A DNA stretch of 64,000 bases from Lentisphaerota bacterium. Its GTDB lineage: Bacteria > Verrucomicrobiota > Kiritimatiellia > UBA8416 > VGWJ01. Shown piece after piece: positions 41,135-46,489 of the stretch. The notes under the pieces were generated by a model. That model did no database searches and had not been told where the DNA came from. It worked only from the letters and a program-made list of their open reading frames with translations. The stretch lies in the NCBI GenBank assembly GCA_016873635.1, contig VGWJ01000001.1, forward strand, positions 1 through 64,000, given 5' to 3'. Each line of letters opens with the position of its first letter. Position 1 is the stretch's first letter. The position numbers and the translations under genes were made by a program.

Positions 41135-41953
41135 ATGATGCGGAAGACATTGCTGGTGGCGTGCGTGGCCCTGGCCTGCGCGGCGGCCCGGCCGCCGGCG
41201 GCGACGGCGCAGGAGGAGGCGGCGCCGGCCGCGGCAAGCGCGACCGCGCCGGCGGCGACGGCGGGAGGGGCGCGGGCGGAGGAAGCGACGGCGCCGGCCG
41301 GCGCGAGCGGCAGGACCACGATGAATCTGCGCGAGATCGTCGCCAGCGGCGGGTCCCTGATGTATGTGCTGGCCGGCATGTCCGTGCTGGCCGTGGCGAT
41401 GATCGTTTATTTCTTCATCGTGCTCCGGGCCGGCCAGGTGGTGCCGCGCGCCCTGCGGCGCGAGCTCATGGACAAGCTGCGGACCGGCAACGTCGATGAC
41501 GCGCGCCGGGCCTGCGAGTACAGGCCCAGCCCGCTGGCGGCGGTCTGCCTGGCGGCGATCGATCACGTGCGGGACATCCCGCAGACCGACCCGATGCTCT
41601 TGAAGGACGTCGTGGAGGGCGAAGGGCAGCGGCAATCCGAGACGATGCAGGGCCAGGCGCAGTACCTGCTGGACATCGCGGTGGTCGCGCCGATGGTGGG
41701 TCTGCTGGGAACCGTGCTGGGGATGCTGCGGGCCTTCAACGGCATCGCGCTGGAGATCGACCGCGCCAAGCCCGTCGTGCTCGCGGCGGGCGTATCCCAG
41801 GCCCTGGTCACCACGGTCTTCGGCCTGATCGTGGGCATACCGGCCATGGCTTTCTATGCCTACTTCAGGCGTCGCGCGTCGAAACTGGTGTCGCAGCTGG
41901 AGGTGGCTTCCACGGAGGTGCTCACCGCCCTGCTGCGCAAGAAGTCCGAATGA
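41135..41953 (+). CDS. exbB: ExbB/TolQ/MotA-type proton channel protein with N-terminal signal
   Basis: 272 aa. A signal peptide (LLVACVALACAAARPPAATA) and an Ala-rich linker precede a membrane helix near 70-95 (LMYVLAGMSVLAVAMIVYFF). The TolQ/ExbB core follows: LLDIAVVAPMVGLLGTVLGM and ALVTTVFGLIVGIPAMAFYAYF. Forms a proton-driven motor with ExbD. GGGAGGA lies 9 bases before the ATG. It overlaps exbD by four bases, and the operon continues into TPR and VWA genes. Confidence 0.9.
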   Translation: MMRKTLLVACVALACAAARPPAATAQEEAAPAAASATAPAATAGGARAEEATAPAGASGRTTMNLREIVASGGSLMYVLAGMSVLAVAMIVYFFIVLRAGQVVPRALRRELMDKLRTGNVDDARRACEYRPSPLAAVCLAAIDHVRDIPQTDPMLLKDVVEGEGQRQSETMQGQAQYLLDIAVVAPMVGLLGTVLGMLRAFNGIALEIDRAKPVVLAAGVSQALVTTVFGLIVGIPAMAFYAYFRRRASKLVSQLEVASTEVLTALLRKKSE

Positions 41954-42378
41954 AATTCCGCCGCGAGGACAAGGGACAGGCGCCGGGCTTCCAGGTGGCG
42001 CCCATGATCGACGTGATGTTCCTGCTGCTGTGCTTCTTCATGGCCAGCCAGATCTTCTCGCAGTGGGAGACGGAGGTCGACGTGCAGCTGCCGACGGCCA
42101 CCACCGGTCTGCCGCAGGACCGCATGCTGGGCGAGGTCATCGTCAACGTTCTGCACGACGGCCGGTACGTGGTCAACCGGCGGGAGCTGGACGATCGCGA
42201 GCTGGGCCGCCTTTTCGGCCGCATCGTGGATCTTTCGCCCGGCCAGCCGGTGCTGATCCGCGCCGACCGCGGCACGGCCTACGAGCACATCATCCGGGTC
42301 CTGGACCTGTGCCGCCGCGCGGACATCTACAACATATCTTTCGCGACCAGCTTCGTGAAGGAGCCGCCGTCCCGATGA
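41950..42378 (+). CDS. exbD: ExbD/TolR-like protein
   Basis: 142 aa. One membrane helix with the proton-path Asp: APMIDVMFLLLCFFMASQIF, around residues 17-36. A periplasmic domain follows (VDVQLPTATTG ... VLIRADRGTAYEHIIRVLDLC). Partner of ExbB. The start overlaps exbB (ATGA) and the stop overlaps the TPR gene by four bases, so stoichiometric expression is likely. Confidence 0.9.
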   Translation: MKFRREDKGQAPGFQVAPMIDVMFLLLCFFMASQIFSQWETEVDVQLPTATTGLPQDRMLGEVIVNVLHDGRYVVNRRELDDRELGRLFGRIVDLSPGQPVLIRADRGTAYEHIIRVLDLCRRADIYNISFATSFVKEPPSR

Positions 42379-44738
42379 CGTTTCGCACGTGCTGCCGCGC
42401 CGTTCTGCTCGCCGCCCTCTGCGGGGCCTCCCCGTGCCGCGCGCTGACCGAGGAGGAGCGCATGCAGTTTGCCGACGGCCTCTACGCCCGGCAGATGCAC
42501 GCGCCGGCGGCGAAGGAGTACGAAGCGCTGCTGCGCGACTTCCCGAACAGCGCCCTGGCGGACGTGATGCGCTTCCGGCTGGGCGAGTGCCACCGTCTGA
42601 CGGGCAACCGCGTGGCGGCCGAAAAGGAATTCCGCGCGGTCTTCAGCGACTATCCCAAGAGCGCGTACCGGACGCGGGCGGGTTTCCGGCGGGCGTGCAT
42701 CTTCTACGACTCGGGGCTCTACGACTCGGCCGTTGATCTTTACCAGAAGATCCTGGCGGAGAACCCGACGGACGAGATTGCCTCGGCGTCCATGTACTTC
42801 CTGGGCGATTCGCTGCTGAAGCTGAAAAAGGAAAAGGACGCGCTGACCGTCCTGGAGAAACTCGTCGACGGATACGCGGCCGCGGAGTTCGGCGCCTACG
42901 GCCTGCTCAAGCTGGGCGAGGTCCACGCCGCGCGGAAGGATTACGGCCGGGCCCTGGACTGCTTCGGCCGCGCCGCGAAGGCGCCGCCCACGCCGCGCGT
43001 GGGCGCGGAAGCCGTGTTTCAGACGGCGCGCATTCACTTCGAGCGCAAGGAATACGAAGAGAGCGCGGAGGCCTACCGGCGCCTGCTGAAGGACTATCCC
43101 GGCGACGAGCGGATGGCCGCGGCGCGGCTGCAGGCGGCGTGGGCCTTCCACAACGCCGGCCTTTGCGCGGAGGCGCTTGAGGCGGCGGCCGCGGCGGGTT
43201 CCGGAAACGGGGGCTCCGACGCGGCGGAGTGGCTCTACCTGCGGGCCAACTGCGAGCGGCAGCTCATGAAAAACGCTGAGGCGGCGGCGCTCTACAAGGA
43301 GCTTCTGGACAAGTTTCCGAACTCCGCCTTTGCCGGCGCCGCGCGCTACGAAAGCGCGCTGGTGCGGTACCGCATGGGCGACTACGCGGCCGCCATCGAG
43401 GCCGCGGCGGCGGTGCGGTCGGACCCGGCCCTGCGCAAGGACGCGTACTGGCTCCTGGCCGAGTCGAACGCCGCGCTGAAACGCGACGCGGAGGCCGTTC
43501 AGTACTACCGGCTCATCGCGCGGGAGTTTCCCGACAGCGACCTGGCCGACGACGCCAACTACCGGCTGGGCTATCACCTGCGGGAGAGCGGCGACTTCGC
43601 CGAAGCCGCGCGCCGCTTCCGGCTCGTGGCCGAGAGTTTTCCCGACAGCCCGCTGGCGCCGCAGGCGCTGTTCGCGGCCGGCGCGTGTTTTGCCAGGGCG
43701 GGGCAGGACGCCGAAGCCGTGCAGGACTGGTCGGCCCTGGAGCGCGCGCACCCCGACGACGCCGCGCTGGAGGACGCGCTCTACCAGAAGTCCATGTCCG
43801 AAACGCGCCTGGCGCGCGACGCGGACGCGCTCGTCTCGCTGGCGAAGCTGCTGAAACGCTTTCCGGGTTCGCGCTTCGCGGCCGACGCGCGCTACTGGCG
43901 CGGCCTGCTGATCATGAAGCAGGGGCGGCCGGCCGAGGCGGAGAAGGAATTGCGCGCCGCGCTGCAGGCCGCGCCGCGCGACGACCTGGCGCCGCTGATC
44001 CGCTACCGCCTGGCGCTGGCGCTGCAGGCCACGGACCGCGACGCGGAGGCGGCGGATCTTCTGGAGGGCCTGCTGAAAACGGCGTTTGCGTCCGAGCTGC
44101 CGCCCGAGCTGATGCGCTGGCTTGCCGAGTACCGCCACGATCAGAAGAAATACGACGCGGCTCTCGCCGCGGCGCGGTCGCTGATCGCGCGCGACAGGAC
44201 GGCCGCGTGGCAGGAAGCCGGCTGGTGTCTCGCGGGACGGGCCATGCTGGCCAAGGGCGACGCCAAGGGCGCCGGCGAAGCGTATCGCGCGGCGCTGGCG
44301 GCCGACGGGCGGACGGGGTTCGGCGCCGAAGCCGCGCTGCGGCTGGGCGAGGGCGAGCTGTCCGCCGGCAACGCGGCGGCGGCGGCGGGCTATTTCCAGA
44401 AGGCGGCCGCGGCCGGAGGGCCGGACGCGGATCCGGCCGTCCGCGCCCGGGCCTACGCGGGCCTGGCCCGCGCGGCGCGGGACGCGGGCGACGACCCGGT
44501 CGCGGCGCGGTACTTCATGAGCGTTGCCGTGCTCTATGACGAGGACCAGCTCGTTCCGGAATGCCTGTACGAGGCGGCCGCGGCCTTCCTGCGCGCGGGC
44601 CAGGCCGGCGACGGGCGCAAGGCGATCGCGGAGCTGCGGGAGAGGTTCCCGGGCAGCGAATGGGCGGTCAGGGCCGCGCGGCTGCCCGGGGCGGCGGAGG
44701 CGCCGCCCGCCGCGCCGGAGGAGGGCGGCGGCACGTGA
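42375..44738 (+). CDS. Exported TPR-repeat protein of the Exb operon
   Basis: 787 aa. Signal peptide (AVLLAALCGASPCRA), then TPR or Sel1-like helical repeats through the whole length. These include repeated DFPNSALAD, KYxSALVRYRMGDYAAAI-type units and YbgF/CpoB-like FPxSxxAxxA motifs. Expected to be periplasmic, possibly an adaptor between the ExbBD motor and outer-membrane or wall partners. It overlaps exbD by four bases and the VWA gene by one. No enzymatic motif seen. Confidence 0.82.
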   Translation: MTFRTCCRAVLLAALCGASPCRALTEEERMQFADGLYARQMHAPAAKEYEALLRDFPNSALADVMRFRLGECHRLTGNRVAAEKEFRAVFSDYPKSAYRTRAGFRRACIFYDSGLYDSAVDLYQKILAENPTDEIASASMYFLGDSLLKLKKEKDALTVLEKLVDGYAAAEFGAYGLLKLGEVHAARKDYGRALDCFGRAAKAPPTPRVGAEAVFQTARIHFERKEYEESAEAYRRLLKDYPGDERMAAARLQAAWAFHNAGLCAEALEAAAAAGSGNGGSDAAEWLYLRANCERQLMKNAEAAALYKELLDKFPNSAFAGAARYESALVRYRMGDYAAAIEAAAAVRSDPALRKDAYWLLAESNAALKRDAEAVQYYRLIAREFPDSDLADDANYRLGYHLRESGDFAEAARRFRLVAESFPDSPLAPQALFAAGACFARAGQDAEAVQDWSALERAHPDDAALEDALYQKSMSETRLARDADALVSLAKLLKRFPGSRFAADARYWRGLLIMKQGRPAEAEKELRAALQAAPRDDLAPLIRYRLALALQATDRDAEAADLLEGLLKTAFASELPPELMRWLAEYRHDQKKYDAALAAARSLIARDRTAAWQEAGWCLAGRAMLAKGDAKGAGEAYRAALAADGRTGFGAEAALRLGEGELSAGNAAAAAGYFQKAAAAGGPDADPAVRARAYAGLARAARDAGDDPVAARYFMSVAVLYDEDQLVPECLYEAAAAFLRAGQAGDGRKAIAELRERFPGSEWAVRAARLPGAAEAPPAAPEEGGGT

Positions 44739-46489
44739 TGAACGGTGCGCGAACGGAAACGGCGGGATTCAGCCGGCAGCACGTCGCCGTGGCTGTCGCC
44801 GCCGCCGCGTTCTCGCTGGCGCTGCACCTGGTGTTGTTTGTCTACCTGCGCGGCGTCGAACTGAGCGTGCCGGTCACGGCGGGGCGCGCCCTGCGCGAGC
44901 TGCCCGCGCGTTCGATGCGTCTGCTGGAGGTGTGGCGAGGGGCGGCCGCGAAAGAGCCGCGCGAGAGCGCGCGCGCCTGGGACGCGGGCCTGGCCGAGGA
45001 GGCGCTGCGCGGGGTCGACGAGCCGCGCCTGGCGCCGGACGAAGCCGCCCTGCGCCCGCCGCAACTGGGCGACGGCCTGCTGGCCGGCGAGGAGGCCGCG
45101 CTGGCCAGGCCGGAGGCCCGGCCCGCGCCGCCGACCGGCCTGACGCGCCAGGAAATGCTCGTCATCGAGCACGCCGTGGTGGCGGACAACGTGGGTATCC
45201 CGCGGCGCGTTCGCGTCCCCGGCGTGGAGCGCGTCGAGGAGGCGGACGTTTCCTTCATCATGCCTCCGGCGGCGGGCGCGGGGGCGGCCCTGGCCGCCGT
45301 GGCGCCGCCGTCCGCCGCGACGGGCGCGGCGTCCGCCGGTCCCGTGGCGGGCGGAACCACCGGCGGCGTGGGCGTGGTCGCCATCGGGGAGGAGCGGGCG
45401 GAGTCCGGCGCGGGGCTCTATCCCGAGCCGCGCGAGGAGATCACTTCGCTCCAGCCGGTCGAGGACCTGCTGACGGTCGACATCACCGTTTTCGAATCCC
45501 TGCGGGACATCAGGTACGGCTACTTCCGCATGGTCATCCGGCGCATCGGGCCGGAGGCGCTGCCCGTGATGCCCAAGGACGTGGCGCTCGTGCAGGACGG
45601 CTCGGCCAGCATGACGGAACAGCGGCTGTACTTCTGCCGCGAGGGCATGATCCGCGCCCTGGACCAGATCGGCCCGGACGACCGCTTCAACGTGGTCGGG
45701 TTCAAGGACGACGTGCAATGGTGCTTCCGGGACTGGGCGGCGAACAACCCGGAGCGGCGGGCCGAAGCCCGGGCTTTCATCCAGGCGCTGCAGTCGTCGG
45801 GCGAGACCGACATCTTCGCTTCGACGAAGGCCCTGCTGAGCCTGAAGCGCGACGCGACGCGGCCGGTGGTGGTCGTGCTGGTGACCGACGGCCGCCCCAC
45901 GACGGGCCTGACCGACAGCTCGGACATCATCGCGCAGTTCACCAGGGCCAACGCCGGCGAGATGGCCCTGTTCACGATGGGCACCGTCCAGACCGCCAAC
46001 GCCTACCTGCTCGACCTGCTGGCCTACTGCAACGGCGGCGGTTCCCTGGTGGTGACGCGGGGCCGGTGGGATATTCCGGACGCGCTGGAACGCGTCGCGA
46101 GCGAGACGTCGCGGCCGGTGTTGCACGACATCGGCTTCCGCTTCGCCGAGGGCGGCGGCTGCGAGGTCTTCCCCGCGGCCACGGGCAACCTGTACCTCGA
46201 CCGCACGCTCGTGCTGCTCGGGCGCTACCCGCGCGGAACCGAAAGCGTTCTCTTCCAGGCCGTGGGCAGGGGACGCGACGCGGTTTGCGACATGATCTTC
46301 GACGTGGGCCTGCGCGGGGCCGCGCGCAGCCGGGACGAGGACTTGCGGGCCGAGTGGGCCAGGCAGAAGCTGTATCACCTGATCGGCGCCCACGCGCGCG
46401 GCGGACAGCCCGAGCTGCTGGACGAAATCCGGGCCACCGCCCGCGCCTACGGTATTGACGTGCCCTATCGGCGTGAAGTATTACCGTGA
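44738..46489 (+). CDS. VWA-domain protein with TonB/TolA-like transmembrane anchor
   Basis: 583 aa. A cytoplasmic N-terminus and a single helix at about residues 16-37 contain Ser26, His30 and Leu37 (FSLALHLVLFVYL). These match the S-x3-H-x6-L spacing that TonB and TolA use to engage ExbB/ExbD or TolQ/TolR. A long Ala/Pro/Glu-rich linker follows, then a von Willebrand A domain from about residue 280 with MIDAS motif DGSASM and FNVVGFKDDVQW, and a C-terminal segment resembling inter-alpha-trypsin-type VWA proteins. ATG overlaps the TPR stop; the stop overlaps thrS. No TonB C-terminal domain. Confidence 0.82.
   Translation: MNGARTETAGFSRQHVAVAVAAAAFSLALHLVLFVYLRGVELSVPVTAGRALRELPARSMRLLEVWRGAAAKEPRESARAWDAGLAEEALRGVDEPRLAPDEAALRPPQLGDGLLAGEEAALARPEARPAPPTGLTRQEMLVIEHAVVADNVGIPRRVRVPGVERVEEADVSFIMPPAAGAGAALAAVAPPSAATGAASAGPVAGGTTGGVGVVAIGEERAESGAGLYPEPREEITSLQPVEDLLTVDITVFESLRDIRYGYFRMVIRRIGPEALPVMPKDVALVQDGSASMTEQRLYFCREGMIRALDQIGPDDRFNVVGFKDDVQWCFRDWAANNPERRAEARAFIQALQSSGETDIFASTKALLSLKRDATRPVVVVLVTDGRPTTGLTDSSDIIAQFTRANAGEMALFTMGTVQTANAYLLDLLAYCNGGGSLVVTRGRWDIPDALERVASETSRPVLHDIGFRFAEGGGCEVFPAATGNLYLDRTLVLLGRYPRGTESVLFQAVGRGRDAVCDMIFDVGLRGAARSRDEDLRAEWARQKLYHLIGAHARGGQPELLDEIRATARAYGIDVPYRREVLP

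Follow-up and report, generated by a model that had tools for sequence, protein, structure and literature searches.

To our knowledge, TonB and TolA are the only well established force transducers of ExbBD and TolQR motors. In June 2025, Williams-Jones et al. (PMC12204202) proposed a further kind in the Planctomycetes-Verrucomicrobia-Chlamydiae (PVC) group and other bacteria: von Willebrand factor A (vWA) proteins with a Ser-His-Leu-Ser (SHLS) helix and a motor box. These are encoded near a gene for a tetratricopeptide repeat (TPR) protein, a tolQ gene and a pair of tolR genes, an AlphaFold3 model of related vWA proteins places the His on the motor, and the proposal was made as a prediction without a phenotype. 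The same paper describes a transpore-helix vWA family that has an Asp in its pore helix and no exbD or tolR gene. Here we analyse an exbB-exbD-TPR-VWA operon in a 64,000-nucleotide stretch, the window, of an uncultured Lentisphaerota bacterium of the class Kiritimatiellia (GCA_016873635.1, contig VGWJ01000001.1, positions 1 to 64,000 of the forward strand). Comparative sequence analysis indicates, with a probability that we put at about 0.8, that the VWA protein transduces force in the manner of TonB and TolA and has a vWA head of the inter-alpha-trypsin inhibitor heavy chain (ITIH) type, and its predicted role as the energy transducer of the linked ExbBD motor is well supported. A preliminary description of the window, made from the sequence alone, had suggested this role without knowing of a characterised counterpart; such an arrangement had already appeared in print in June 2025, there too as a prediction. 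Because the vWA transducer concept was published, the central inference is prior art and its novelty is moderate.

Domain organization of the VWA protein

The operon lies at window positions 41135-46489, its consecutive genes overlap by 4, 4 and 1 bases, and Pfam and NCBIfam matches to all four confirm the gene order first described. AlphaFold2 (38 orthologues, see below) predicts a sole membrane helix at residues 13-37 of the VWA protein, disorder to residue ~230 that provides a linker of ~200 residues, and a confident vWA-containing end at residues 240-578. In the translation, the helix reads AAAAFSLALHLVLFVYL and contains S26-x3-H30-x6-L37, the spacing pointed out in the preliminary description, with S26 encoded at 44813-44815 and H30 at 44825-44827. 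Pfam returns VWA-type models only (VWA_3, 1.1e-14), and searches of Pfam and NCBIfam found no TonB_C, TonB_2 or TolA C-terminal domain in the protein; both this absence and an extracytoplasmic end composed of a long linker and a vWA domain with a metal ion-dependent adhesion site (MIDAS) had been correctly read from the sequence.

ITIH and TIGR03788 vWA proteins are secreted or surface proteins, and we know of no motor-docking helix described for either. The head of the VWA protein matches ITIH in both sequence (9.6e-37) and fold (1.3e-23), and residues ~275-520 resemble in these respects the ITIH vWA module (PDB 6fpy, 9c4f) and the TIGR03788 sortase-target proteins; the MIDAS is intact, its residues being retained in 35-38 of the 38 orthologues. 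With TonB (ExbBD) and TolA (TolQR) the protein has in common a single N-terminal Ser-x3-His helix, a gene that follows those of the motor, a candidate strand-like spot near the membrane and a disordered linker, but it carries the vWA head instead of a TonB_C or TolA C-terminal domain and has a TPR partner in its operon.

Two segments of the linker stand out. From the end of the helix to residue 106, the 38 orthologues show conservation at residues 59-65 only, with a conserved V65 and hydrophobic residues at 60 and 62, ~30 residues past the His; the TonB D-box lies at about the same distance from its helix (PMC10907165), and we regard this segment, modelled by AlphaFold2 with low confidence, as a candidate motor box. 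Further along, in a linker that is otherwise variable, residues 134-175 are strongly conserved, have the family consensus WxPRQEILxI ... LPRRxIPxIERVxxAPDIxxP and may constitute a partner-binding segment, for example for the TPR protein.

Conservation of the Ser-x3-His helix

A search of 57 relatives yielded orthologues of the VWA protein in most of them. The 38 with a readable N-terminus, the window protein included, share 27-44% identity with the window protein, and S26 and H30 are invariant in all of them; after Met1 they are the sole invariant positions within the first 240 residues, and His30 ranks second in conservation across the whole protein by relative entropy. A22 is nearly invariant (35 Ala and 3 Ser), and the remaining columns of the helix are variable. 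A second collection of 80 named loci was obtained by scanning with an alignment of the VWA family (A1), its named relatives being metagenome-assembled genomes of Kiritimatiellae, Lentisphaerae and Verrucomicrobia; all 69 loci with a readable helix have S-x3-H. Scans with the single VWA sequence gave no matches in the genome contigs, for which alignment A1 was needed, and no relatives in the viral contigs. When both collections are pooled and made non-redundant, S-x3-H is present in 94/94 distinct intact helices. Outside this count are loci truncated by contig ends, the broken frames of L067/L185 and L182, in which the docking helix lies in another frame, a locus with its frame unsettled (L216), and the secreted paralogues L077 and L078. 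The last two (L077 is at G000:C13) are ITIH-like vWA proteins that have signal peptides and no docking helix, and are ~28% identical to the VWA protein in the vWA end.

Lack of conservation of Ser and His in orthologues had been named in the preliminary description as one of the findings that would refute its proposal, and both residues are kept throughout. The Leu of its proposed S-H-L motif does not fare as well, since position 37 is Leu in only 12/38 and 28/94 sequences and otherwise mostly Phe, Val or Ala. The second Ser of the TonB/TolA motif is also absent, position 41 being E41 in the window protein, Pro in 15/38 orthologues and chiefly Pro or Asp across the family, so that the full Ser-3X-His-6X-Leu-3X-Ser motif is not present. 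In cryo-electron microscopy structures, contact with the first transmembrane helix (TM1) of ExbB or TolQ centres on Ser and His, and the Leu of TonB makes none (PMC12905483), and the loss of Leu37 fits with this.

Linkage and co-occurrence of the VWA, TPR and motor genes

The entire ExbB-ExbD-TPR-VWA order is present in fourteen relatives. In many other genomes the VWA gene stands apart, either ahead of thrS or with rho on one side and tig-clpP-clpX on the other (gene names here and below are read from translations); the latter, a housekeeping position, is that seen in distant relatives including L063 and L067. These unlinked VWA genes still encode the Ser and His, showing that it is selection, and not simply gene order, that maintains the docking residues. 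Separate TPR loci were located in twenty genomes, one of which is uninformative as its contig ends too early; in the 19 informative loci ExbB-ExbD is directly before the TPR gene in 18 and ~1.4 kb upstream in one. The ExbB-ExbD-TPR trio is therefore a fixed unit, from which the VWA transducer can roam. The TPR protein had been put forward as an adaptor, and the linkage upholds its partnership with the motor, the adaptor role itself being putative.

Among genomes at least 90% complete, 27 encode both the VWA and TPR proteins, none VWA only, one TPR only and seven neither (Fisher P 1.2e-6, in a test that treats related genomes as independent and has no correction for phylogeny). In the class sample a VWA-family match is present in 132/193 genomes, a few of which have the secreted paralogue only, and in 82/117 of the high-quality ones.

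Motor subunits and the TPR protein

The subunits encoded beside the VWA gene have the residues of working ExbBD/TolQR motors. D21 of ExbD aligns with the proton Asp of Escherichia coli ExbD (Asp25; PDB 6tyi_Y), and T193 and T227 of ExbB align with the pore Thr pair of the ExbB and TolQ structures in the PDB. In TM1 of ExbB, S83, A88 and Y92 are invariant among 34 linked ExbBs, although their register relative to the Ser and Trp contact residues of E. coli is uncertain. The Ser and Ala are common in many ExbBs and Y92 is shared with the ExbBs of a second vWA family (A2, below); at position 92 the remaining ExbBs in the comparison carry Asp, Glu, Asn or some different residue. As TM1 is the surface gripped by TonB and TolA, this invariant face and the VWA helix have the appearance of a matched pair.

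The repeats of the TPR protein are YbgF/CpoB- and BamD-like (TPR and TIGR02795 matches), and its N-terminus resembles a signal peptide in nearly all orthologues. We considered that it might be a lipoprotein and rejected this, a lipobox pattern being present in 2/35 predicted N-termini, with none convincing in the window protein. The combination of a motor, a transducer and a periplasmic TPR protein recalls Tol-Pal with CpoB/YbgF, but there is no TolB or Pal at the VWA operon, and a separate Tol-Pal operon is encoded at another place in the genome (L220, at G000:C31). This is a complete tolQ-tolR-tolA-tolB-pal operon, and the helix of its TolA has V-x3-H in place of S-x3-H.

Table 1. Features of the ExbB-ExbD-TPR-VWA operon (window coordinates).
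Feature	Coordinates	Strand	Basis
ExbB/TolQ-type motor subunit, 272 amino acids (aa)	41135..41953	+	PF01618 2.2e-28; PDB ExbB/TolQ alignments; TM1 columns
ExbD/TolR-type motor subunit, 142 aa, single copy not pair	41950..42378	+	PF02472 2e-22; PDB 6tyi_Y alignment
Exported TPR solenoid protein, 787 aa, signal peptide	42375..44738	+	TPR and TIGR02795 matches; orthologue N-termini
VWA protein, 583 aa, proposed energy transducer	44738..46489	+	Pfam; AlphaFold2
Transmembrane helix, residues 13-37, A22-x3-S26-x3-H30	44774..44848	+	AlphaFold2 helix; S26/H30 invariant
Candidate motor box/D-box, residues 59-65, P-M-x-L-x-E-V type	44912..44932	+	V65 in 31/38; position analogous to TonB D-box
Conserved linear motif block in linker, residues 134-175	45137..45262	+	Orthologue conservation; low pLDDT (AlphaFold2 confidence)
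vWA domain, intact MIDAS D287-x-S289-x-S291, T357, D384	45578..46051	+	Pfam; alignment columns; PDB ITIH matches
C-terminal strands and helices, residues 460-571, completing ITIH/TIGR03788-like end	46115..46450	+	NCBIfam; AlphaFold2; fold match

Proposed mechanism

Ser/His conservation, co-occurrence, the motor residues and ExbB TM1 each lend support to the suggestion that the VWA protein acts as the energy transducer of an ExbBD motor. From these direct observations we infer docking, pulling, a role for the TPR protein and an outer-envelope target, as follows. The N-terminal helix would dock against the outer face of TM1 of one ExbB subunit via S26 and H30, and proton flow through the ExbB pentamer would turn or cycle the ExbD dimer. 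This dimer could then capture the transducer strand just outside the membrane, at the candidate motor box, and pull. Force would travel along the disordered linker to the vWA/MIDAS head, and on the side of the outer membrane or peptidoglycan this head may bind a metal-coordinating ligand. The exported TPR solenoid would be a permanent partner of the motor, probably as a periplasmic assembly or docking platform.

Several points weigh against this assignment. The second half of the SHLS motif (Leu, Ser) is not conserved in the family, and the candidate motor box departs from the strict alternation of the TonB I-x-V-x-M as well as being modelled with low confidence. The genome encodes ten ExbB and eleven ExbD matches, so that the partner motor of the VWA protein is deduced from linkage, and the strength of the VWA/TPR association is subject to the relatedness of the genomes counted.

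Alternative interpretations

The alternative that survives best, to which we assign somewhat less than an even chance, is that the window protein is simply a further member of the published Tichowtungia vWA force-transducer family and not a new variant. The principle and the phylum are the same, as are the SHLS-type helix (in Ser and His only), a motor box (in the window protein a candidate one), the disordered linker, the vWA end and the TPR, tolQ-like and tolR-like neighbours (PMC12204202). However, the published text gives the tolR genes as a heterologous pair and domain II as ~100 residues long, whereas in the window family every motor locus inspected encodes one ExbD; the family also has a linker about twice as long with its extra conserved block, and an ITIH-like vWA domain whose gene is often unlinked from the motor. 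The A2 family (TPR-ExbB-ExbD-ExbD-vWA, linker ~110) fits the published text better than the window family does, and A2 proteins do not match the A1 profile at 1e-4. We see the window family as probably a new variant of the already predicted kind of vWA transducer, differing from the published description in its single ExbD and ~200-residue linker.

It is also conceivable that the helix docks on ExbB and yet the protein exerts no force, serving passively as an accessory or regulator, for example by gating the motor or anchoring the TPR protein. Conservation of Ser and His speaks for docking alone, the motor box is uncertain and no cargo is known; in the studied systems, however, these residues serve energy coupling, and the build of a transducer is recognisable in the long linker, the MIDAS head and the motor-box-like spot; we find a purely passive role improbable.

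That S-x3-H arose by accident or serves packing, with no connection to the motor, appears very improbable. The motif occurs in ~5% of TM-like 21-mers of the fetched DNA (38/690, an upper-end estimate as spurious frames and related families are counted in), and a single occurrence consequently means little. Yet in the alignments the S-x3-H of the VWA helix is in excess of chance, being absolutely conserved across the class while the rest of the helix varies; it is absent from the secreted vWA paralogues and recurs in two further unrelated protein families placed after ExbB-ExbD-ExbD. Finally, although a membrane-tethered vWA protein does adjoin a tolQ-like gene here, there is scarcely any likelihood that it is a TolR-like rotor with its helix inside the ExbB pentamer, since helix 13-37 contains no Asp or Glu, a genuine ExbD with Asp21 is encoded alongside, and the published transpore-helix family has neither ExbD nor the SHLS residues (PMC12204202).

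Other motor-linked families in the Kiritimatiellia

The A2 proteins are TM-tethered, have a DVSVS MIDAS and are encoded after TPR-ExbB-ExbD-ExbD (L219/L244, L243-L257). S-x3-H is present in 13/15 close members with an intact N-terminus, and the copy in the source genome (G000:C22:24982-26397; L219/L244) has S-x3-Y. In other genomes of the class, ExbB-ExbD-ExbD is followed by membrane-tethered alpha/alpha-toroid proteins resembling squalene-hopene cyclase or TED domains (L228, L234, L242, L267-L281); 14/15 members of the main subfamily have a GPTGS-x3-H-like helix, and the His is missing from a sister subfamily (L282-L296). No paper on a motor-linked alpha/alpha-toroid family was found in a literature search of limited reach, which is not proof of novelty.

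Two DUF4159-type membrane proteins (a Pfam match in L231 and by resemblance alone in L239) also directly follow ExbB-ExbD-ExbD and have a helix without His. Beyond the window, at G000:C1:82000-95000 (L218), ExbB-ExbD-ExbD is followed by a 155-aa TM protein with A-x3-H, a DUF4159 protein, and then MoxR-, DUF58- and BatA-like genes, and this is possibly another motor-linked system.

Genomic context and expected biological role

The operon is preceded by argH and followed by thrS, infC, rpmI, rplT, pheS and pheT. The genes occur widely across the class in housekeeping surroundings (argH and thrS-infC-pheST here, rho and tig-clpPX elsewhere), and for this reason we expect the VWA system to perform a general envelope job, such as tethering or organisation of the outer membrane, beside a separate Tol-Pal. 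We rejected the idea that it replaces a missing Tol-Pal, as tolQRA-tolB-pal is present on C31. Gliding motility was likewise rejected as the leading function; cultured strains of the phylum are recorded as non-motile (PMC10880615), so that here the suggestion of gliding made in 2025 looks less likely to apply.

A class-wide transducer with a vWA head suggests that evolution swapped the business end and kept the grip, and S26, H30, ExbD D21 and ExbB Y92 offer single-residue handles on the 2025 prediction. We would give even odds to the broader proposal of an interchangeable docking module in the Kiritimatiellia: through the TonB/TolA-type helix, several dedicated ExbBD motors with TPR partners would each drive a transducer whose periplasmic head is unrelated to the others (ITIH-type vWA, divergent vWA, and alpha/alpha-toroids resembling squalene-hopene cyclase or complement TED domains), in several unrecognised outer-envelope tasks. 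If docking occurs as proposed, the Kiritimatiellia would own several motor-driven rods with different heads.

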